Origin: Isoetes taiwanensis
Taxonomy: Eukaryota; Streptophyta; Lycopodiopsida; Isoetales; Isoetaceae
DNA: 64,000 nt
Reading direction: 5' to 3'
Assembly (NCBI GenBank): GCA_021234155.1
Contig: JAJEKV010000038.1
Location: forward strand, 5,257,625 to 5,321,624
The position numbers and the translations under genes were made by a program. Below the pieces are notes generated by a model. The model did not search any database. It was not told the DNA's origin and saw nothing but the letters and a program-made list of their open reading frames with translations. This document shows, piece after piece, positions 17,137 to 63,670 of this stretch (position 1 is its first letter; each line of letters starts with the position of its first letter).

Positions 17137-17919
17137 ATGTAATTGGGCCCCGGACCGTAGTCCTCTCCACTCAAGGTGAAGCGACCATGCCCTTTCGTCT
17201 GACCCATATATAAGTTTCAATTGCAATAAAGATCTTTTGAGACGGCAGCTAGCCCCGATACATAGAGTCCCCTCCACTCAAGGTGAAGTCGACATATGAC
17301 CTTGACTCTGTGACACCTCAATTTTGTAATCTACATTGTACTCGATAAGGTATGAAGGTGAGTTTGGGCCCGACACTGGTCCTCTCCACTCAAGGTGGGG
17401 GCGGCAGGTGTCCTTGACCAAAATACTGCGTTTTTTTTTACTACTTTCGCGATTACCGTCCTCTCCTAGTTTATATATGTCTAGGCTACTAAATACAAGA
17501 ATCGGTCCACTTACATGTGGCCGGTTCGCATATCCGACCTCCACGGTGGTAAGACATCATCAATCGTCTCGGCCATCTCCAAAGGCCGATCATGCCGATG
17601 ACCATGGCGATCCATATAGGCGACAACAAGTACAAGATATGGTTAAAAAAAGAAGAACACCAAAGGCTAGGGCCGGAAGAGGAAGCGAAAAGAAAATAAC
17701 AATGAAGGCCGAAATAGTTGCTTATATAGAAATCTTTAACGTCGCGATGCGGCGTCACGTCGCGATGCGCGACGGCGTCCGCGATCGCGACGTATTGTCA
17801 ACGGTCACCGCCGGGGTCACCTCGACTTGGCGGACACGTGGCAAATACGCGTCGCGGCGTGTCATACGTTACGTAATGTCGCGTGTGGCCAGCGGCGCCG
17901 CGTATAAACAACCACCACG
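17137..17919. other. Intergenic sequence with a thrice-repeated 'CCTCTCCACTCAAGGTG' motif
   Basis: The motif occurs near 17161, 17270 and 17381, each followed by 'GCGACC' or similar, giving an imperfect ~110-bp repetition. Overlapping ORFs (17336-18001 plus, 17489-17758 minus) have no recognisable domain. From about 17740 the sequence becomes CpG-rich and leads into the palindrome array. Confidence 0.4.
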
Positions 17920-18330
17920 GCGTGACACACTGCCGTCCATTGGCGCCCAAGTCCACTGGCGTGACAGATGGGCCAAGTATTGTACGTCGCATGCGACGTG
18001 ACCTCGCAAGCATCCACCTGGCATGACACCTGCCGTTTACCTTGGCGCCCAAGTCCACGGCATGACCGGATGGGCCAAGTACTTTACGTCGCATGCGACG
18101 TGACGTCGCAAGCATCCACCTGGCGTGACACCTGTCGTCCACCTGGCGCCCAAGTCCACCTGGCGTGACAGATGGGCCAAGTCACTGTACGTCGCATGCG
18201 ATGTGACGTCGCAAGCATCCGCCTGGCGTGACACCTGTCGTCACCTGGCGTGACAGATCTGCCAGGTCACGATGTCAGACGTCGCATTACACGTCGCATG
18301 CGACGTGCCTGCGACGTGACGTCGCATTGA
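17920..18330. repeat. 102-103 bp tandem array, 16-bp palindrome ACGTCGCATGCGACGT in each unit
   Basis: The palindrome occurs at 17984-17999, 18086-18101, 18189-18204 (one mismatch) and 18291-18306, giving periods of 102, 103 and 102 bp. Each unit also has 'GGCGTGACA', 'GCGCCCAAGTCCAC' and 'GCAAGCATCC' blocks, though the last interval is less regular. More ACGTCGCA words follow to 18395. It is very CpG- and ACGT-rich and lies directly upstream of the gypsy integrase. Confidence 0.85.
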
Positions 18331-49906: not shown

Positions 49907-52315
49907 GTATGGGATGTTCAGCGAGCTGTTTCCGTGACTGATGTCAAGATATAATTGTTTTTTTGAGATGCAGCAACTTGGAGATTGCATCCGGGATACT
50001 AGGAATGTATATCGCAAAGTAGCATACTGCATCTGACGCTGGTAATTAGGGCAAGCGGTTCAGACATTGCATCTCCTGTCAGGCATTGCAGTTGGAGAAA
50101 TGCTACTGAGATAGGTAAACCAATGACATACAACTCTTCATCTTGATTTAATTCGCATTTGTCACAAGTCGTCTTCTTTATTTAACTTGCATACTCCGTT
50201 GTCTGCTTTGTTGACGCAATTTGAAAGCAGCACATGTTCCTGATGAATAAGAATCTTAGGTTAATCTTAGATTTTCCAAAATGATTGAATCCAATCCCAA
50301 CTGTGTTAGCTAGATGGATATCGTATCTTTAAAAAATTTGTCATACCATTCATCATTCATGACTTATTATATGACAAATAAATGGGAAGAAACACGCAGA
50401 TCCATGCATGTTAATTCTGGTGCTGAGCTAGCGATGGCGATGCACAGGCGAGCTGCAGATTGGTCGCCATGGCTCTCTGCACCCCTTCTTTTATACATAT
50501 TTGTCAGAACAAATTGAAGAAGCAACAATAGAGACCTGTTTTCATGCCATATCTTTTTCTCCAAATATTATTGATGTGCATGTCTCTAGAATTTACAATC
50601 TCAATATGCAGATAGATTGCACCTGGTAATGGGTTCAGAGTCTATTCATTGTGAAGAAAAAATGATGTCTTATGTTAGTCTGCAGGAGGTCAGACCTCAG
50701 CTTGACATGTGTATCACTGTCAAAAGATCTCAAATTCACATGAAGAGAGGCATAGACTGGAGAGTTCTTATATTCCAGGTATTGATCTTTTTTCATTGTT
50801 GCATAACACTACATAATATCTACTGAGTTCTTATCTCTGCTCCTTCTTAATCCCGTTTTAATTTACATTACTTGAAAATGGTCTGATATAATTGCAAAAT
50901 AGTCTTCTACGACCATTTGTTATTTCCCTTGTCCACAAATTTTCATATACCTGGATGCTATTTGCAAAGCAGGACATCATCCCCTGTGAATTGCATTCTT
51001 AATTTCATTTTAGTTCACATTACTTAAAAAATGCCTGATACAATTGCAAGGTCGCCTGCGCTATTTCGGCTCTGTTGCGAAGTGTATTCTTGAGGCAGAT
51101 AAAGATGATGCTGGACCATTTATTCTATTATCTAAAATGTACTGTGCAATCGATACATTGATGTGGGTGGCCGTTGTTATGATAGTGAAATCACAATCAG
51201 AGTTCATATAATCTGCAGTTCAGTCCCAGGCATGTCCAAGAGATTTTTACGCCCATCTTTCAAATTTGTTTCAATCTAAAAAAGGTCAAGTTCCTAGAAT
51301 GACAGAATAATCTACATCTTTATGATTTTCAAGAAAGTATATTGTTGATTTGTTCAATGTATGTTTTCACATGCTTCCTTCTAGATTATCGATCTCTCCC
51401 TTCATGTTTCCTATTTAGCTCCAATTTTAACAGGCACCTTTTGTCAAGGACATATGGATATTACTTGTCAACAAAACACAAGAATAGTTACAATGCTCAT
51501 GTATCTAGATCAACCCATGTCCTTTGTGCCCTTTTCAAATGAGTGAAGACACAGAGAAGAATGACACTGAGAGCTTGAAGTGCTAACTGAATTTCAAAAA
51601 CAAAACCCAGTATACGTATGTTCAAATGAGCCAGAGTTTTGGTCTTGGCTTTTCTCTGCTAGAGCTGAAGATGTGCCAGTTTTATATTCAATAGTTATTG
51701 CTCTTGCCACAACTTCCACTATTGCAACAAATTCTTATAGAGCATAGAACAATACTTGCAGCGAATGACAACATTTCTTTCTAGCAGGTGAGCACACTAC
51801 AGCAAAAGTGGAAGACCCAACTTACAGAATGAACATAGGCAATGCGTTGTTGAGAAGAAGTGGTCTCCTTCAAATAAGTCTCCTTACAGGTTGTGAACAG
51901 ACCTTTCCATCTTGCTTGCACAAATAAAAGCCTGCAGCAGCTCAAACAAGATTGCGTATTAAACGGGAGCAAATCATCGAAACGAGAGCGAAAGGAATAT
52001 TCCTCAAAGATTCCCTTTTTTTTTACAAAAAGGGGGTAAAACGAGGTTAAAAAAAAAGGATGCATGAAAATCTATTTTGACCCCCAAAGTGACTAATTTT
52101 TTTGTGCAACGAAAGAATTGACTTTTTTAAAGTGTCACTTTTCTTAGCAAATAGAATGTCCTTGAAGTATATTTTACGAGAGAAACTCTAATTTCAGAGG
52201 ATAAAATATTCAACAAAACATTGAAGTAAGTCTGTAACTGAAACTGTAGTATTCTCAAAATTTGAAGATAGAATCTTCATATTCACATACAAAATTTACA
52301 GTCTTTTTCTAAGAC
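49907..52315. other. No convincing gene
   Basis: Only short ORFs (under 100 codons) and AT-rich sequence. An exon-like stretch near 50630-50780 (ending at ATTCCAG|GTATTG) and another near 51060-51110 lack recognisable homology. Confidence 0.4.
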
Positions 52316-55300
52316 TCAGTTATGTACAAAAGTGTGAGGAGTGATGAGAGAGGGATCCATGACGTCATCATATTCATTTATGCCATCCTCATCACCTTCA
52401 CTTTTTTCACTGTCACTAGAGGAAGTGCTTGAGTTATCTTCCTCATCACTATCAACAGATGGTGAAGCATTGCCACCACCTTCTTCATCCTCTTCTTCGT
52501 AATTACAAGCTTTTTTAAGCAAATTGATAGTCCTCGGGTGAGAGACGCATTGTCGATTTCAATTTAAAATCATAGCACAATATAGTCACGTCATTAAGGA
52601 TCAGCTCATCCCTACAACCCACCTTCTTGGACTTTCTCCCTTTTCCTTGGCTTCTCATTTCTAACTCATATCTACCTTCAAAAGCATTTTCTGAGCGTGT
52701 TGCAAGCCAATGAATCTTGAGTTTAGTGACTAAGCCTTCCTCCTTGACCGTGGTCAAGCACTTTTGCTATCCGTAAAGGTCGACCTTTGTCATCCTCCTC
52801 GTTGGAAGAGCAATAAGCATACCCTTGGTAATTTCGCGGATATTACCTTGAGGCTCATTCCCGCCTTGGTCCGAGGTACATGACTCGATCCTCGTCTTCT
52901 TCTCATCGCAGTGCTAATGTAGCATTGCTTGGACCTGCTTGGTGCTGGGGTTGATAGAAGGTGTTAGGCCATTGAAATGGTTCTTGCAACTGTCTTAGAG
53001 CTATATTTTTCACAACAATTTTCTGTTCGAGAAAGAAATTACTCCACCACATCCGATCTTCTTCTAAGAAGTACTTAAAGCCTGAGGAAATTCCATTTTC
53101 AATGGCTTTTAAGGATGACTCTGGGGTACTTTTCTTCTGCTTTGGACTCCTTAGGATTTTTGAGAGGAAGTTGCTCAGCACGTTCTATGAAGGAAGTGTC
53201 TGGAATATATTTAAGGAAGCGTAGTCCCTCTGGTGGACTCCAGTCCTTAGTTGTGGTATACTTCTTTCCTGTAAGAAACTTTGGCCATCCTTCAAGTAGA
53301 ACTTGATGTGATGTTGAAAGGTGAGATCATTCAATTTGTTCACAACTTGTTCTCTGTCTGAACGTTGAGAGAAAATAAACTCTCCGAAATCGTGAGCTCT
53401 TTAAGGAGATCGATCAATCGGAGTGGGAGTGTAAGAATCTTCAATAATTAGAACTAAAGTAGAGAGAGAAAGCCTTCTTCCTCTCGAGGCGCATGTAAAA
53501 ATCTCTTAACATTTGGTCAATTTGATCATGAGTGTGGCCTACAAGTAAGAAACCCAGCTTCACTTTTCTAAAGATCCCTAGCTCCACTAACATGGCACAG
53601 TACGCAAAGAGTGTTTGGTTCTTGTTCTCCCTTGTAGTATTGGCAAGTTGCAGGTAAAGCACTGGTGGTAATTTCTCTTGCTCGCACAGGACCTTGTTAA
53701 GAATTGTAATTGTGAGGTTCGGGTCACCATGCAAGTTTGGATACGTCAAAAATACTTTGCACTTTAGACTTCCTTTGAAGACCATAGCTCCTACAAGGTG
53801 GACCTTAACAAAACATTCCTCTCGCACATCTTTAGGAATGTTGAAGAAATGCGGTAGAGTAGTTTTTTTCTGGTCCATTCCATCAATCACAACAGACATA
53901 TATTGCAGTGGACGTTCAAGAGCTTTTTCTGTGTTTGGCAAGCTTTCTTCTCTCACGCTGCTTGTTGTTCACGATGTCTGGCAAGGTTCTGTTGCACAAT
54001 ATCTGTAGAAGAAATCAGGTCAAAGCATTTTCTTTAAAACAAGTAAGAGATTAGAGAACATGAGCTTACTTCTTTCGACCTCTGTCTTTGCGGTTTCGTT
54101 GACTCTTTAATTTCGCAGACACCTTGAGCAAACAGACATTCTATGTCTCCGGGAATTTTCACTAAACCGAATTCACTTTTTCCACAGCCTTGTGAAGTGT
54201 GAGTAAGAGATGTCTCAAGCCGGGTGCAAGTCTCTTTGTACTCATTAAAAACATCTTTTTTTGGTGATGTTATCGGTTAAATGATACATGTTCAAGTAGG
54301 CGACTTCTCACAGTTTCTCTAAAATATTTCTCCATCCATGACACAAAGAAAGAAGGGCATGCATGGTTACAACTCTTCTTGGTCCACAATGATCATCAAT
54401 TGCTGGATTTTTGTCCGCCTTTTGTGTATTCTAGACATTCCGGTGGACCCTAAACGGTGGACAACCATAAAGCATTTCGCAAACTTCTTGGACGGTTAAT
54501 ATAGTGCAAGAAGGTGTTATGTCCGGTCTTACATGATAGGCCAAGTAGGCATTTCGGGTCAGCCAATGTCATTGAATCAGAAGTTGTCTCTAATTGCTCG
54601 TAATTTAGCCATGTTAAATTTGTTGATGCAACCCAATGAGCAGCATTTACTTCTTAAAAGTCTTCTCATTTTATGCTTTCCATAAGGTTTCTTCTTCTTA
54701 GAGAGGAGCATGCTCAAACCATAATCCACCTTGAATTTCTTGGTGGACCGGCTAGAGAATGTGTAATCTCGCGTTGCACTCGCTGGTGTCTTCATCTTCA
54801 AGAGAGTTCTCACCTGGGGTGACCTCCTCTCGCCCTTAGTGGTGTGCTTGTAGAGGAGAACAAACCACGGAAGCTGCACCCTTGATAAGGCGGAGGTACG
54901 TTGTTGAATAAAGGAGATGGGCCACCATATGAAGGAGATGGACCAGCAAATGTTGTTGCAGCCTTCTTCACAAGGAGTTCGCTCAAACATGTCTCTTAGA
55001 GCAGACCGAAAATTGCAAACCCATGTGTCACCACGCTTGTGTGAAGAGGAGTGGATGTCGCAGGTCGTCTTCATTTGTAGTGAAGTCTTGGTGGGGAGAA
55101 GTCGTGGAGAATCTCGCAGATCTTGAACGCGGTTGTATTCCTTTGTTTGTGGAAGTGAAGATGGAGAAACTACAAATGGTCGAGGTAGTCTGTTCAAAAA
55201 ATTTTCGAGGTCGAAAGCATTTGTAGTGCCTGGGGGGATGGTACAAATGGTGGTGGAAGATTGCTACGCAACAGCAGGTGAGGGTTGGAAAAGCTGGTGG

Positions 55301-55580
55301 CGTACCGGTTTCCCACCGGACTTGGAAAGGGTTGGAAAGGTGGTGGGCTACTACTAGTTACCGGACTCCTGAGTGTCTTGAGAAGCAACAAAGACCTTGT
55401 CGAGGTAGGTGTTGAAGAAGTGTCTCCGCCTTGTGTTCCATCCGAGGTAGAGGTACTTGGGCAAACAAATGGTGGTGGAAGTTTGTTCATGAACAGGTTA
55501 ACCATGTAAACAACCGCAAAACATTGTGGACGTGTTAGTAACTCACAAGTCGATTGGAGTAATGATATTCGAGAATACAA
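52316..55580 (-). pseudogene. DUF7869-like (transposase-related) gene, multi-exon or broken
   Basis: Reading right to left: a Pro/Ser/Thr-rich N-terminal part with three LPPPFV-like repeats (55580-55040), a segment ending CCSLGCINKFNMAKLRAIRD (54660-54577), a broken middle part, then 53956-53441 with VVIDGMDQKKTTLPHF, KCKVFLTYPNLHGDPNLTI and LVGHTHDQIDQMLRDF. The 'DGMDQ...PHF' and 'GHTHDQIDQ' signatures are those of the DUF7869 family, which I associate with RNase-H-fold transposase-like proteins in plants, algae and animals. C-terminal pieces at 53181-52903, 52757-52515 and 52522-52316 end in an acidic Ser-rich tail. Frame changes between pieces may be introns or damage. Divergently arranged with the ParB-like/methyltransferase gene. 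Confidence 0.6.
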
Positions 55581-55902
55581 ATGCTATTAGGAATACTAAT
55601 TTGTGTGCGCAAAAGATTTGTCAGATGTGCACAGATGCTATTCCGAATACACTTTGCCCAGTATTTGGACAAGACGATTCCGCATCACATAGAAAACACA
55701 ACCGACAAGTGGCCTACCTTTAAAAGGAAAATTGAGCCTCGGGCCATGTATTCGCCCCGAGAGATTTAGTCGCCCGTCCCGAAAGGCCTTTCGATCTACA
55801 TCGATTTGTCAGTATTCGATTTACATAGCGAAAATAATGGATGGGTAAGCAATTAAAGTACATAGTACGTCTTTCGTGTGTTTCCTGATTTGCTTTCGTA
55901 AG

Positions 55903-56234
55903 CCAAAGTGTATTCCAGAATACACTTTGAGCTTCTGGCTAAGTGCAAAGTGTATTCCGGAATACACTTTGCCCTTCAGTCGAAGAGCAAAGTGTATTCC
56001 GGAATACACTTTGCCCCTCATGTGAAGTGTAAAGTGTTGCAAAGTGTATTCCGGAATACACTTTGCCCTTCATGCGAAATGCAATGTGTATTCCGGAATA
56101 CACTTGGTCCTTCAGTCGAAGAGCAAAGTGTATTCCAGAATACACTTTACACTTTATATTAGGGGCGAAGTGTATTCCGGAATACACTTTGCTCTTCGAC
56201 TGAAGGGCAAAGTGTATTCCGGAATACACTTGGC
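55903..56234. repeat. Palindrome array 1: eight copies of GTGTATTCCGGAATACAC, 42-bp period
   Basis: 18-bp cores start at 55908, 55950, 55992, 56044, 56086, 56128, 56170 and 56212. All intervals are 42 bp except one of 52. Most copies extend to a 28-bp perfect palindrome (core plus GCAAA...TTTGC), leaving 14-bp spacers. Spacers 55973-55986 and 56109-56122 are both CCTTCAGTCGAAGA; spacer 56193-56206 is its exact reverse complement. The array lies between the divergent DUF7869-like gene and the first recognised exon of the ParB-like gene. Half-sites lie outside it near 55650 and 56430. Confidence 0.97.
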
Positions 56235-56487
56235 TTATTTTCTTAAAAACACATCTTCATATTTTGCACCTAAACACACCACTTTTTAGCGGAAACAGAC
56301 TCGTTTTATGTTAAATCTACCACTTTTTAGTCCAATTAAGGCATAAAAAATTGTGTTGTAGCGACATTATTTAGGCTTGTTTTTCTGTTTTTTGGTGGCG
56401 TTTAGGGCACAAGATTAGTAAATCTTATTCTGGAATACAGCTTTCGTCCCATTTCCTGTCTTAACATTGTTGTTTTAAACGTTTCAG

Positions 56488-59400
56488 TGGAAGGGAGGAA
56501 GGAAGCAAGAAAGCACCAAAGAAAACTCTGAAGGTGAAGCGCCCACACCCCCAGAAAAAAACAGCTGACACGGACGAGCCTGCAATATACGAAAACTTTC
56601 AAACGCAGTGGTACATAACCAAGGGTGCGGACGGAAAATACAGCACACTGACGTTTCTGTACATCTGTAAAAGTGCTGGGAACAAAAGGTACGCCGACAC
56701 CGAGTTCGTTAACCTCGGGACAATAAAAGAGGTCTCAGGTGTTGCCGGACAAGGAGGTCAGTCGGGGAGGCTATCCTTCAAAACCTCCCAAGGCTTCATT
56801 GTTGTAGATATCGCATTCTTTCGAATTGTCAGTGTGCAACCACAGGCACTGTACAAATTCTTTTCTCACTACCGGACCAAACATAGCCTGTGTTCACTAA
56901 TCAGACAGGTTTGTTCGAGTACAAGCGAGGACTTTCCTGTCAGTGAGTCCGAGTGTTCAGATGCAGGCAGATCAGGATCATCACCTTCTGCTAGTACTTC
57001 CGGGGAATCATCAGATGGAGGGTCGCAAGAACAAGAAGAGGAAGTTCCCCCAGTGCCGCCAAAGAAACCTAGCAGGCCAAGAGCCACCATAGCCGCTAAG
57101 GAACCAAAAAAGCGGAAGGTACAACAGCTTGAAGTGGCAGAAAATCCCGAGGAACAACCAAAAACGAAGAAGGGAAAGGGCAAGGCACCTGGGGTTGCCA
57201 TTAAAGAAAAAAAGGTGGACAAGACCTCAGAGAGGATGGAAGAAATTAATCAGAACAAGTATGTGCAAGGTGTAATATACTTGCCAGTAACTTCCATGAG
57301 GTTGCCACCGAAGAATGCAAATGGTGAGCGCCCCCTTCAGGTTCGCAAAATTTATGCTGACCACTTAAGAAATCTGAAGGACAGAATAAGGAGCAATCCC
57401 AATGCCCATGTTGCTCCAATTGTTGTTTTTGTTGATAGATCCCAGTGCATGGACCCCAAGGACTACGACAGAGAAAAAGCAGACACCTACATGCACTATG
57501 TCCTTGGGGGAAACCACAGTTTCAAAGCAAGGAGGCAGTTGTACAAGGAGAAACACAATCCAAGGTATCTCTCTGTGCTCTGCGCTGTTTACTATGGCCT
57601 GACAGACGAAGAAGCCAAAATCGTTGCCAACACGCACAATGCTGACAACGAATATAAGCTTAAAATGAGTTTCGTGGACAAAATCAGGTTCATGCACAGG
57701 GAATATGTAATATTTAAAGAAAAATATAGAGATGATTTGAAGAAACCACAATACTCTCTGGAACTGAAGGAAGCGTGTGCTGTGGAGTGCTGCCTTAAAT
57801 ACGACGAGGCTAACAAACGGCAGTCTCTAATACGACATGACAACTGGTTCCAACTAGCCTTTAGAGACGGCAGAGTAAGTTCTGTATTCTGGAATACACC
57901 TGCAACTTTCCCACTGACATCGCTTTTGTTTCTGCAGATTTGGGACCTTCAAAACGAAATCTTCACCATGTTCGAGCGTGGTGATTTGAAAAGCAAAGGA
58001 AAGGTCTCAGAAAAGAAAAAAGGATCCGACGTCCCCAAAAAGGAAATGACTATAACTGTTTGGCGAGAAATGCAGGGCTTCACAGATATGGATATACTAG
58101 AAAGGCTACTGCAAAAGGTTGTTGACAAGGAGTTCACACTAGAAGAAATGTCCAAAGAACTCCACAAGTAAGAATGCCACTTTGGGTTTTTTGTTTGTTA
58201 GGAAGAAGTGTTTTCTGAAATACACTGTGGGTCACACACGAAAGACAATGTGTATTCCGGAATACACTTTGGCCCTCACGTAAGAGACAAAGTGTATTCC
58301 AGAATACACTTTGCCCTACACTGTGAGGGTCGAAGTGTATTCCGGAATACACATTGTCTTACACTGTGAGGGCCGAAGTGTATTCCGGAATACACATGGC
58401 CTTGCAGTGTGAGGGCCGAAGTGTATTCCGGAATACACTTTGCCTTACAGTGTGAGGGCCGAAGTGTATTCCGGAATACACTTTGCCTTACAGTGTGAGG
58501 GCCGAAGTGTATTCTGGAATACACTTTATGTTACTGTTTTTCAAATGATTCATTCTTGTTGCTGTTTTTTAGTTTTCTCCTTCTAACGTTCGTACAATAA
58601 TACAGCCAGAAAAATGTTATCACATGTCAAACATGCTTAATGGAGCAGTTAAATGTCGACAGCTGGGAAAGGTGCAAAGAGCTTTACCCTGTAGCAACCT
58701 CGGACGAAAGGATTGTCCAATATGCGCCAAATTTTGAAGGCTGGGTATGATGAATTGTTTTTCAAATTGTTGTTCCTCGTGTTACTAAGACGTTTCTTCT
58801 TGCAGAGCAAAAAGAAAAACAAGGACCTGCTGGAGGGCTTTATGCATCTAGTCAGGACAGCGCGCGAAGAGAGGACGCTGGCGGACAGGCGTGTTTTGGA
58901 CACTGAGCCCTCCGATTACGAATGGTTTACAATGTACGACCAAAACAACCTGTTCTGTATAGTACACGGTGACTGCACCAAACTAGCCGAATCAATAAAG
59001 CCCCAGGATTTATCCCAAAGAAAAAATGATCTTAGAGAATATGCACACACCAATGGCAAAGAGAAGAAGGGCAAAAATATCTATGATGAAATAAGGTTGG
59101 AAGATACAAAGCCCAAGGTAAAACAACTTTTCTGCTTACTTCGTTACACCAAAGTAACCATGTATAAACACCCAACAAATATAACGTTCGAGCCACAACA
59201 TCGTAAAGTAACAATCACCATCCAGTACGGTTAAAACAGACTCCGTAAAACACTTGAAATATGATGCGCTCCATCCATTAGTTCACCCAAATTAATTTAA
59301 CTAAGCATTCAGAAAACACTATGCTTACGAATCAAATGAGCATTAGAAGACACCATGCTTTAAAATAAAACCATATTCACATGAAACCATGTGCTCCAAT

Positions 59401-61047
59401 GTGTTCAATGGAAAGCAATATATAAAATTATTATTATGATTGTATGAATAAAGCTGAAAAGGGTAACAAGTAAACATAAGTGCATTGTTGGAGATAAGCA
59501 GATTAAAGACACAAAAAAGGAAAACACATGAATGAAGAAAAGCGCAGAGCTGAAAAGACGATTCCTAGGTCTTGCAAGGTCTGGCATGTTTCCCGTTTGG
59601 CTCCAGGGTTCGAAGTCCGCAAATCCGAAAACAGAGCTCTCATGCAGGTTAAATGAGAACAGGCCGGAAAAACAGACGAAACATGGTAAAAGGGGTTTTT
59701 CATTATCACAGGTCTTTGGGTATGGCTGCCCTCTCTGCCAACAATTTTGGGTCATCAAACCGCCCGCAGTTAAGGTAGCCGAGTACATAACCTGGAAATT
59801 AAGCGAAACAAGTGCACAAGAGCAGCCAAGGTAGACACGAGCATTGGCAGAACAAAAATTGATAAAGAAACAAACTCTGAGAAATCCAACCAGAAACCCA
59901 ACCATTTTGCAACCTACTTCTTGAAACTTTGTCTCTTATTCAGAATAAAACAAACAATTTCACTTCTCAACCAACAAACAACTGAGCAGCAAAAAGCAGA
60001 ACGACTGAACCACAAGAAACCCACCAAATAATTAGAACAGGTTTATAAATTAGCAAAACATCCTGAGCCTTAAGACAGGGTAACCACAGATCCATCTAGC
60101 CCTATCTTTGGGCCGTTTTTCAAATCGCAAAGGGTTAAATCCCCCATCTCATAGAAGTCTGCAACTCTTGGCCCCTCCCTATCCCTGATGCAAATTATGT
60201 CTTTCCTGTTAGAAATCAAAAACTTACCTCTAGCAATGATGTCTTCGGCTGTTGCGTCCAGGGATTTGAGCGACCGTAAGTGGCTCTCTAACTCTAGAAA
60301 ACAGCCCTCCAACTGAATCCAGACATCATACTGTTTCATATTTTCATAATATTTTAAGAGAGGGGCTCTTGCTCTCTTGCTCCTCTGTTGGATCTCTTCC
60401 TGCAGAGAGGAAACCTTGGCCTCCAGAGCCGTAATAATTTCTGCCCTTGAGCTACTCAGATCATCAAACTTAGCCTGCAACCTGCTCTCCATAAGGCCGC
60501 TCAGATTATCAAACTTCGCTTCCAATCTGCCCTCCATGGCTTGAAGCCATGCCGAAACATGCCCAGAGGAATCAGATGCACGTCTCTTCCCGAACTTTAT
60601 AGCACTAGACTTTGGGGCCATAGCAAGCAGGCCGGATGTACCGGCAGCAACTACCAAGACAAGAAAGAAGAACCGTGAGGCAGGGGATGGGCCAAAACGC
60701 AGGAAAAGGAAACGGAGATGCTATGAAGGCTAATGAAGGAAGAAAGGGCCGATAAAGATGCTAAATAGAGCTAGGAAGAAGACAAAATAACTACCTGCTA
60801 ACCGAATCGTAGTTCTGGAATCTAGTTTTCCTTCTATTCGGTGAAACGAAGGAAAACCTTATATCTTCTGGATATGTTTTCACGTCCAGGAGATTGGGTG
60901 CTCGACGCATTTTCTGGCTCTGGTACAACTATTGCTTGTGCACTTAAGAAGGGCCGAAACTGTGTAGCTGTTGACATCGATAAGGAGGCTGTACAGTTCA
61001 TCAAGATGAGACTTTCTGCCTTACCAACTCTACCAGACGAGAATTAA
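56488..61047 (+). CDS. ParB-like domain / beta-class DNA methyltransferase gene (multi-exon, interrupted)
   Basis: Exon starting at 56488 (after TTTCAG) to 57874 or, with a readable 63-nt intron, on to 58167; then 58606-58744, 58806-59117 and a last exon 60826-61047. Phases agree at each assigned joint. The start is in an upstream exon not found. Order of parts: basic stretch (KKAPKKTLKVKRP, NLS-like); an unassigned ~100-residue globular part; Ser/Glu-rich linker with PPKKP and a second basic stretch; ParB/sulfiredoxin-like domain (VRKIYADHLRNLKDRI, APIVVF, then GGNHSFKARRQL at about 57505-57540, then YGLTDEEAKIVANTHN); FCIVHGDCTKL near 58955-58985, like the start of an N6/N4 methylase fold; and motif I in the last exon (PGDWVLDAFSGSGTTIACAL, AVDID). 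Motif IV then motif I is beta-class order, but no (D/N/S)PP(Y/F/W) was found. Confidence 0.72.
57875..57937 (+). other. 63-nt in-frame intron (or retained coding segment) with one palindrome copy
   Basis: Bounded by AGA|GTAAGT and TTTCTGCAG|ATT. It is 63 nt without stop, so splicing or retention both keep the frame. It contains CTGTATTCTGGAATACAC (57882-57899), a variant of the array palindrome. Confidence 0.65.
58208..58524. repeat. Palindrome array 2 (intronic): eight copies, 42-43 bp period
   Basis: Cores start at 58208 (degenerate), 58250, 58292, 58335, 58378, 58421, 58464 and 58507, with intervals 42, 42, 43, 43, 43, 43, 43. Five are perfect GTGTATTCCGGAATACAC. Spacers are again similar to one another (CAGTGTGAGGGCCGA type) but differ from those of array 1. 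The array lies entirely within the intron 58168-58605 of the ParB-like gene. Confidence 0.97.
59118..60825. other. 1.7-kb interval splitting the methyltransferase exons
   Basis: Starts with a GT donor (AAG|GTAAAA) and ends with an AG acceptor at 60824-60825, both in phase 0. It holds an antisense 195-codon ORF (60070-60657) and a second antisense frame (59405-59905). No catalytic methylase motif was seen in any plus frame. Either a large intron with an inserted element, or an insertion that replaced the exon carrying motif IV. Confidence 0.55.
60070..60657 (-). CDS. Hypothetical coiled-coil protein inside the methyltransferase interval
   Basis: Intact 195-codon frame. Residues ~35-95 contain repeated heptad-like segments (MEGRLEAKFDNLSGLMESRL then QAKFDDLSS and ITALEAKVSSLQEEI), predicting a coiled coil, preceded by a basic segment (KFGKRRAS). 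The C-terminal ~80 residues are unassigned. It is antisense to the host gene, which suggests that it came in with an inserted element. No family recognised. Coiled-coil ORFs of this size occur in several retroelements, but that link is only a guess. Confidence 0.5.
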   Translation of the reverse strand: MVVAAGTSGLLAMAPKSSAIKFGKRRASDSSGHVSAWLQAMEGRLEAKFDNLSGLMESRLQAKFDDLSSSRAEIITALEAKVSSLQEEIQQRSKRARAPLLKYYENMKQYDVWIQLEGCFLELESHLRSLKSLDATAEDIIARGKFLISNRKDIICIRDREGPRVADFYEMGDLTLCDLKNGPKIGLDGSVVTLS

Positions 61048-61050
61048 GAG

Positions 61051-61293
61051 TTGGGGGCAAAGTCTAATTCTGATTTTGCTAAGATGACATCTTCGGAGAT
61101 ACAGCCTCCTTTCACAAGCTCTTTGGAAGACGAAGCTACATTTGCAGAGCTTAAGGAAGTTGCTCTAGCTACAATACCTGAAGCAGCCACCAACACAGAA
61201 AAGCCTAAGTCACCAGAGAAAGGTGAAACGAAAGAGACTGATCAAGCTGAGAGCAGCAAGAAGAATGAAGAAGACTTTAATTTAGATCTCTGA
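61051..61293 (+). other. Acidic/basic tail in frame after the methyltransferase stop
   Basis: Directly follows the TAA at 61045-61047 in the same frame and stays open for 80 more codons, rich in Glu, Lys, Ser and Thr (KPKSPEKGETKETDQAES). The composition resembles a nuclear-protein tail. It may be the true C-terminus behind a nonsense mutation, or 3' UTR. Confidence 0.4.
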
Positions 61294-61652
61294 CGGATTT
61301 TTGTTGTGGCTACTGATTGACATTTACTATTTATTGCCATTATTGGCCATTATTGATATAACACAAAAACAGTAATGAAATTATTATTGTTATGTTTACT
61401 AAATTTGTGTTTTTTGTACATCCACCTCTATAAAATTACGTGCTCATGTCTCAATTCTGCTATTTTCACGTGCTTAACTCCAAAACACCAAAGTCGTGTC
61501 CAAAGAATAGCCCAAAAATAGGCCCAAAAAAAAATTGATAATCCTGAAACTTTAAACCTCTCTTAAAAAAGCCTAATTTTTGAAGTGAAGTGTTTTTTCT
61601 AAAGGAATCTTTGAAACGGGAGTGCTGCAACACTCCCGTTTAATTTGCAACA
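61294..61652. other. No gene; AT-rich
   Basis: A perfect 'GGGAGTGCTGCAACACTCCC' hairpin-like palindrome lies near 61618-61637. Nothing else seen. Confidence 0.5.
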
Positions 61653-61925
61653 GTGTTCTCAACAAAGCTGCATGTTGGGACAAGAGTGAAGCTGCATAAT
61701 GGGACAAGGGTTAATGTTGCTGCTATTATTATGAAATATGATGATATTATTATGGCTTTGCAGTTATTTTTACAAATGCAAGACAAAGGTTTTCTACCAA
61801 ATGCTCGAACTTATGTTGTTGCTCTAAAATCATGTGGTAATTCCACTTGTCAAACATATCTACTTGCTAATGTTGTCTATCATATTGCTCTTTCGACAGC
61901 TATGTTGCTACAAAGGATGCTATGA
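61653..61925 (+). pseudogene. PPR-repeat fragment
   Basis: DIIMALQLFLQMQDKGFLPN followed by ARTYVVALKSCGN is one pentatricopeptide repeat and the start of the next (A-LF-M---G-.PN--T---.L--C). Flanking sequence has lost the frame. Probably a truncated relative of the PPR pseudogene to the right. Confidence 0.7.
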
Positions 61926-62616: not shown

Positions 62617-63670
62617 ATGCCCAAAGGCAGATTTGCCAAAAATAATGATGCATCTGTTACTCCTGATATTGCCACCTGCCTCCGGCGGTTTGGTAATGAG
62701 GGGCAGCATGCTGCTGGCAAGCGCCTCCATGCCGTTATGGTCAAAAGTGGATGTGGGAGAAATTTGTTTCTGGGAAATCTTCTGGTGCAGATGTATGGCA
62801 AATGCGGGGCAACAGGTGATTCTAGAGCTGTGTTTGACAGGATTGAGGGGAAAGAATGTATATTCTTGGACCATCATGGTTGCCATGTACGCTCAAAATG
62901 GTTTGTTAAAAGAAGCGTTGCAACTTTTTCAGCAGATAGAGGAGAGGAACGTGGTATCATGGAATTCAGTGATTGCTATATATGCTCAGCATGGGCATTG
63001 CAAAGAGGCTATAGATTTTTTTTGAAAATGCAGGTCGGAGATGTATTGCCAAACAAAGTGACGGGTCTTAGATGTTTGTATGAATGTTGGAGGTTATGCA
63101 GATGGAAAGATAATGCATTCCTGTATTGTATAAAGGCTTTGAGTCAGGTGTTCAAGTGGCAACTGTACTGGTCAACATGTATGGAAATTGTGGGGGTATA
63201 TTAGTTGCAGAGGAGACATTTGATCGCATCACAAAGCTAGATAACATCTGCTGAAATGCATTGATTGGGTTATATGCAGCAAGATTTGTTTTTTTAATCA
63301 TGCTATTATCTGCCTAAACGAGATGCAATCCCAAGGTATGGTCCCAGACGGTGGTACTTTTGTTAATGTTCTTGATGCACTTTCCAGCCCCGGCAGACTT
63401 TTGTCGATGGTAAACGAAAGTGCACACATATATCTTAGCTAGTAGGTTTGACTCGATGTTGTCGTAGGGCACGGCTCTCATTAATATGTATGGGTAGTGT
63501 GGCGGCACCGGAGGATGCATGTGAAACATTTGATAGAGTATTTGTTCGTAATGTTGTCTCATGGAACACTATGCTTGTAATATATGCTAAGGTGGGTTGG
63601 TCAATGAGGCTATACAAGTGTTCAAGTCTATGCCACGAAAAGAGTTTGCCTACCTACGAGAGATGTCCGT
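62617..63670 (+). pseudogene. Plant PPR (PLS-type) gene, frameshifted
   Basis: Opens with MPKGRFAKNNDASVTPDIAT, then GKRLHAVMVKSGCGRNLFLG, LLVQMYGKCGATGDSRAVFD (PLS-type repeats). A frameshift near 62845 moves the next repeats (YSWTIMVAMYAQNGLLKEAL, ERNVVSWNSVIAIYAQHGHC) to the frame of 62600-63025. Later repeats (GGYADGKIMHSC; VLVNMYGNCGGI; RNVVSWNTMLVIYAKVG; NEAIQVFKSMP) run on to about 63660 across more frameshifts and stops. Intact relatives bind organelle RNA and guide editing or processing. No E/DYW end is present. The style of repeats resembles fern PPR families. Confidence 0.9.

Follow-up and report, generated by a model that had tools for sequence, protein, structure and literature searches.

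We found that a 64,000-nucleotide stretch of the Isoetes taiwanensis genome (assembly GCA_021234155.1, contig JAJEKV010000038.1, positions 5,257,625 to 5,321,624; hereafter the window, whose own numbering is used throughout) carries a 9.7-kb DNA transposon at 51945-61657, and that arrays of a conserved palindrome lie, by our gene model, in the introns of the transposon's gene for a ParB-like/methyltransferase protein. The explanation we favor, and on balance expect to hold, is that the transposon uses these palindromes as cis-acting recognition sites, to which its own ParB-like protein binds; the methyltransferase of that protein would mark the DNA of the element. The palindrome is probably the tag that allows this protein to recognize its own transposon.

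The first array (55904..56231; palindromes are given without strand) contains eight copies, which begin at 55908, 55950, 55992, 56044, 56086, 56128, 56170, and 56212. The resulting spacings of 42, 42, 52, 42, 42, 42, and 42 bp bear out an earlier note on this DNA, which reported eight copies at a 42-bp period with one 52-bp step. The same note described the palindrome as perfect, which is true of six of the eight copies across 18 bp, but the copies at 55908 and 56128 carry CCAG in place of CCGG. The 24-bp sequence AAAGTGTATTCCGGAATACACTTT has three exact occurrences in the window (55947, 55989, and 56041), all of them in array 1. Two array 1 spacers, 55968-55991 and 56188-56211, are exact reverse complements, and part of the array has therefore been inverted between palindromes. 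The second array (58206..58526) also contains eight palindromes (58208-58524), of which five are exact, those at 58292 and 58507 have one mismatch each, and that at 58208 has three. Since its copies are 42-43 bp apart and mostly at 43 bp, the suggestion that all sites face one side of the helix holds only loosely and strict phasing is unsupported. A lone palindrome with two mismatches is found at 57882..57899, and a decayed palindrome with an intact centre, TATTCTGGAATA, at 56423..56440. Overall, TATTCYRGAATA occurs 17 times in the window, always with its start in 55911-58510, and 100 shuffled versions of the window gave no palindrome match at up to three mismatches.

By the gene model, which is based on sequence and on agreement among copies, array 1 and the decayed palindrome lie in intron 1 (55845..56487), the lone palindrome in intron 2 (57875-57937), and array 2 in intron 3 (58168-58605). 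Going upstream from the frame at 56534-58171, a stop at 56462 comes before any ATG. The predicted start is an 8-nucleotide exon 1, ATGGATGG (55837..55844; ATG GAT GG), whose GT donor at 55845 joins 56488 in frame. An alignment of the window with eight places from 7 of 20 fetched regions shows both the ATG and a GTRAG donor conserved in all nine sequences, with exon 1 being 7 nucleotides long in region L020 and 8 in the others. The array had been placed between two divergent genes; this does not stand, since by the model array 1 is intronic and the short first exon lies upstream of it. Exon 2 (56488..57874) encodes an N-terminal region and the ParB-like domain, exon 3 (57938..58167) the end of a helical region, exon 4 (58606..58744) is present in other copies too, and exon 5 (58806..59011) encodes the start of the methyltransferase. 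The gene is on the plus strand and exons 2-5 are bounded by GT-AG introns. Exon 5 is interrupted from 59012 by foreign sequence (59012..60862, unstranded, 1.85 kb) without a match in the compared copies; among the matches listed, copy alignments end at or before 59011 and restart at 60863 or later, and the region of catalytic motif IV is missing here. A minus-strand frame of 195 residues lies inside this unmatched segment. The exon with methyltransferase motif I (DAFSGSGTT; 60863..61049, plus strand; PF01555, 3.4e-13) closes with a stop codon. Given the break in exon 5 at 59011, the missing motif IV region, and the stop at the end of the motif I exon, the methyltransferase of the window's own copy is probably dead. 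The ParB part of this copy has an open frame. Other copies without these breaks exist.

Searching the genome (1,658,258,908 bases in 1,110 contigs, 1.66 Gb), we found 2,585 exact occurrences of the 18-mer, compared to none for a reversed control. Twenty regions were fetched from the listed places of the 18-mer (L007 and L008 overlap; contigs C61, C62, and C64 were left out). Pieces of ParB exon 2 or 3 adjoin the palindromes in 14 of these regions, and four contain an exon 4 piece only (L006, L010, L013, and L018). In L012 the gene lies approximately 4.5 kb from the palindromes, and L016 contains no part of the gene. Approached from the protein, the ParB domain (212 residues) gave 150 scored genome matches from 3,439 first-look candidates, and 20 gene copies were picked across this match list before their DNA was seen. 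The palindrome was present at up to three mismatches in all 20 copies and exactly in 19. It precedes exon 2 in 20 of 20 copies and also lies in intron 2 or 3 in 18; four copies (L036, L037, L038, and L044) carry two or three palindromes in intron 2 but lack any in intron 3, and across copies the palindrome is found in three different introns. None of 167 palindromes is exonic after correction of L027, whose exon 2 start was unmapped in the main run and whose four palindromes were placed from a separate run, and 100 simulated sequences contained no palindrome. The earlier note had proposed searching the whole genome for the core and asking whether it is linked to ParB-like/methyltransferase genes; this check was positive from both the palindrome side and the protein side, and the palindrome did not prove to be a satellite unlinked to this gene family.

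The ParB-like protein shows the signature of purifying selection. Leaving out L041 and L044 (out of register) from the codon comparisons, 13 of the 18 copies, the more distant ones, are 0.43-0.59 identical to the window at third positions and 0.82-0.94 at first and second positions, and the median ratio of nonsynonymous to synonymous substitution (dN/dS) is 0.05 for pairs with an estimable synonymous distance. The methyltransferase part shows the same constraint, with 0.52-0.82 identity at third and 0.90-0.98 at first and second positions of the motif I block (four copies, of nine regions with a match). Fourfold sites between copies have a median identity of 0.39, near saturation. For the palindrome, members were picked by core likeness (at most 7 mismatches for the conserved stretch, 3 for spacing, 6 for the between-copy majority, and 5 for mutation and pairing), which favors the core, and L001-L004 (inside L005-L007) and L008 (overlapping L007) were left out of the counts of conserved stretch, spacing, mutation, and pairing. 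With members picked in this way, the window and 15 of 18 copies agree in their majority palindrome; the exceptions are L031, where the centre is CA, and L040 and L042, which have a single exact copy apiece and deviate at the edges. A core-blind count of perfect 12-bp palindromes, which repeats the conservation test without core-based picking, returned TATTCCGGAATA as the top palindrome in 19 of 20 copies (in L030 as a tie, one each) and TATTCTAGAATA in L031. Within arrays, the per-site difference is 0.02-0.03 in the core, compared to 0.13 in the spacers of array 2 and 0.26-0.33 in those of array 1. The conserved stretch spans approximately 24 bp, from -3 to +20 with weaker edges (101 members from 19 regions), and 60 of 74 neighbor spacings of up to 130 bp fall at 41-43 bp.

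The element qualifies as a cut-and-paste DNA transposon, having terminal inverted repeats and a target duplication and carrying two genes in divergent orientation. Its imperfect 26-bp inverted ends lie at 51945..51970 (plus strand; AACAAGATTGCGTATTAAACGGGAGC), where the homology of several copies begins, and at 61632..61657 (minus strand), with AACA...ATTAAACGGGAG present at both ends. They are flanked by identical, unstranded CTCA duplications at 51941..51944 and 61658..61661. The left limit (51944/51945) and the right limit (61657/61658) are common to many fetched copies, and 4-bp duplications with matching ends were found in six of six copies with both ends (the window, L006, L010, L016, L018, and L022). 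The ParB-like/methyltransferase gene is divergent from a gene with a DUF7869 domain (53441..53956, minus strand; PF25273, 8.9e-38), both within the same element ends. Homology between copies extends past the DUF7869 domain on both sides, and the product is probably the transposase; the literature searched for DUF7869 yielded no paper. Near another copy, at L018:8526-9539 on the minus strand, we observed a further DUF7869 family that is distant from the first (motif GHTHEDVD, E 1.5e-35). Target duplications of 4 bp are made by several superfamilies, Sola being one whose duplication length matches. Such a length is given for Sola2 in the available text of one report (PMC3627910).

Four short derivatives of 3.2-4.3 kb (L006, L010, L016, and L018) have both common ends and retain palindromes, although they are without the coding regions for ParB and DUF7869. 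An exon 4 piece is left in three of the four. A 301-bp segment of L016 is common to L006 and L018, is unmatched in the window element except for its palindrome end, and has 40 scored genome matches of 482 candidates. If the site served only to regulate its own gene, there would be no evident reason for such gene-less derivatives to keep it. Judged by these sequence comparisons, selection maintains the palindrome as a cis site of the element, since it is kept while fourfold sites are near saturation, the protein is under purifying selection, and the derivatives retain it. Chance occurrence and an unlinked satellite were both rejected given the empty shuffles, the 20 of 20 protein-chosen copies, and the retention of the palindrome at nearly saturated silent divergence.

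The joined product of the window's gene comprises 692 residues without a stop, its final residues extending beyond 59011 into foreign sequence, and is arranged as the N-terminal region, the ParB-like domain, the helical region, and the methyltransferase start. The joined product had no Pfam match above the cut-off. PHROGs gave a match to a ParB-like partition protein with E 0.0011, which is weak by sequence, and NCBIfam the ParB family at E 0.012, under the cut-off. The ParB-like assignment is further based on a family alignment and on the predicted fold of a relative, P0053. The methyltransferase would be of the N4-cytosine or N6-adenine type. Of 17 aligned rows, 13 have GG(N/T/C)HS at the position of the ParB cytidine triphosphate (CTP) motif as placed by eye, two have GDTHS, one has AGTHS, and one does not include the region. 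A first search for relatives returned one protein, P0001 of Adiantum nelumboides, and a second (E up to 1) returned 30, all from Adiantum. A third returned 56, made up of 48 from Adiantum, Gb_10123, which by its naming style we take to be from Ginkgo, and seven whose source labels are jgi, lgn, or ena. The Adiantum copies are in many cases fragmentary, as expected for a mobile family. Six relatives (P0048, P0049, P0050, P0052, P0053, and P0055), on contigs of 2-4 kb, contain the ParB-like and helical parts and stop short of the methyltransferase.

We propose that one dimer would bind each 24-bp palindrome, with a single DNA-binding domain at each half site, and that arrays with sites approximately 42 bp apart would give high local occupancy. 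The methyltransferase of the bound protein would then place N4-cytosine or N6-adenine type marks on the transposon's own DNA, and intact copies could act in trans for related copies and non-coding derivatives. Binding may amount to self-marking by methylation, to anti-silencing, or to help with transposition, and the mark might aid the element through protection from silencing or through licensing of transposition; the sequence favors neither the anti-silencing nor the transposition role. Of the earlier suggestion of operator or partition-type sites, operator-type sites for the neighboring ParB-like protein are our best reading, but bacterial-style partition is not supported, as the element is a eukaryotic DNA transposon. 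By analogy with bacterial ParB clamps, we also raise, with more doubt than confidence, that the ParB-like protein loads on the intronic arrays as on parS, spreads, and deposits N4-methylcytosine or N6-methyladenine along the element as well as on its derivatives. If true, this modification would be a heritable self-mark separate from host silencing by 5-methylcytosine.

Several observations weigh against recognition and marking of the element by its own protein. The fold match is weak, with a mean predicted local distance difference test (pLDDT) score of 66.6 and a best Foldseek E of 0.075, and the model is of the relative rather than of the window's protein; the model of the window's exon 2 is unusable (pLDDT 38.7). 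The methyltransferase part of the window copy is broken, and motif IV (DLPYGF) was found in eight fetched regions but not in this copy. The two copies nearest to the window give dN/dS values of 0.28-0.29, and constraint on recent copies therefore appears weaker. The four derivatives were chosen via the palindrome, a sample that cannot give the share of derivatives without it. Among 98 members with a single change, 59 are transitions of the central CpG, 24 changes fall at two edge positions, and 15 elsewhere; genome-wide, the CA centre occurs 882 times and the TG centre 816 times, compared to 2,585 intact sites. This is the pattern that decay of methylated CpG would give, and it suggests host 5-methylcytosine on many copies. 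It speaks against the sites being a simple shield from host methylation, which they do not visibly keep away.

We considered whether the same protein at the same sites might act mainly as a transposition cofactor that holds the ends together or aids excision, methylation being secondary, a reading that we think unlikely but well worth weighing. Deletion has left L006, L010, and L018 with palindromes at distances of 367-402 bp (left end) and 465-709 bp (right end), and the TNPA protein of maize Spm/En binds repeated sites required for excision and acts in trans on deletion derivatives, according to the available text of the report (PMC2613891). The window element does not have this geometry, however, as 4 kb separate array 1 from the left end and 3.1 kb (1.85 kb of it foreign) separate array 2 from the right, and in L016 the palindromes are confined to the left part, the last being 2.4 kb from the right end. 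Constraint on the methyltransferase part also argues against a secondary role for methylation. That a host factor binds the sites, making the arrays stress enhancers of the transposon, seems improbable to us. The palindrome does contain TTC-CG-GAA, TTCnnGAA is the core of heat-shock elements, and heat-driven plant transposons exist. Yet heat-shock factor prefers three GAA units and each site offers just two, the conserved 24 bp or so far exceed an 8-bp core, and the short derivatives retain palindromes in the absence of coding regions for ParB and DUF7869.

The arrays could instead act as RNA, in the form of hairpins or double-stranded RNA within introns that serve small-RNA production, splicing, or circular RNA formation, as their intronic position by the model and the mutual complementarity of the intron 1 and intron 3 copies might suggest. 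We give this even less credence. Among 424 members, pair positions had changed on one side in 669 cases, on both sides with pairing kept in 41, and on both sides without pairing in 76; the sequence itself is conserved and covariation is lacking, which weighs the RNA reading down, and again the gene-less derivatives retain palindromes. Least credible is a neutral intronic minisatellite homogenized by slippage and gene conversion. Such a repeat would share the tandem layout, varying copy number, and internal inversion seen here, but the spacers of the arrays diverge and the cores do not, adjoining fourfold sites near saturation are contrary to recent conversion of whole stretches, and the motif recurs across three different introns.

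Other origins were rejected. The 18-mer was not found in viral_contigs, and protein P0010 had no relative in viral_contigs and no match in phages, which argues against a viral origin. A bacterial partition locus does not fit a window of plant genome with introns and retroelements, nor an element with transposon ends, and spread as a retrogene is unsupported since copies retain introns. Elsewhere in the window we observed a broken PPR-like gene beyond the element's right end (62617-63204; a weak PPR_2 match, under the cut-off) and a GC-rich tandem repeat at 17919-18307 (a unit of approximately 102 bp, 3.3 copies).

ParB-methyltransferase genes in algal transposons have already been published. 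In the available parts of that literature, such proteins of eukaryotic transposons are known by sequence, with a guess of self-binding and self-marking and no named target, and the parts we searched for ParB with transposon and methyltransferase described no conserved intronic target arrays. Our data make a likely target visible, namely a conserved palindrome with 2,585 exact copies that lies in introns of the protein's own gene, and the guess becomes testable. If it is true, plants harbor mobile elements with a private methylation system of bacterial type.

Compared to bacterial ParB/Spo0J, the protein described here appears to share, by the model of a relative, the fold of the ParB domain and parS-binding region, and both have a palindromic site. 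Bacterial parS is a 16-bp palindrome of other sequence, and bacterial ParB has the CTP motif GERR where, by eye, we find GG(N/T/C)HS; the fused methyltransferase is a further difference, and a partition role is not expected here. Closer in kind is Sola1-1_Ec32, a giant transposon of Ectocarpus with a ParB-like/N4/N6 DNA methyltransferase accessory gene on the strand opposite the transposase. Its authors suggest, with reference to green and red algae, that proteins of this type may attach to the transposon that encodes them and modify it (PMC12477816). That element is 21.5 kb long and from a brown alga, compared to 9.7 kb in a land plant here, and the available text mentions no target motif (PMC12477816). 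VANC of Arabidopsis VANDAL transposons is likewise element-encoded, and its targets are short tandem-repeated motifs in non-coding sequence; introns of VANC21 and VANB21, genes of the element itself, are among the places where these motifs occur (PMC5735166). Unlike the palindrome here, the VANC motif has 9 bases and is not called a palindrome in the available text, where the effect of VANC is loss of DNA methylation and the protein is not described as ParB-like or as a methyltransferase (PMC5735166). TNPA resembles the ParB-like protein in being a second protein beside the transposase that binds many short repeats, but its sites are 12-bp repeats near the ends and the available text does not mention a methyltransferase (PMC2613891). 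Together, VANC and TNPA indicate that both roads, anti-silencing and transposition, exist in known systems.
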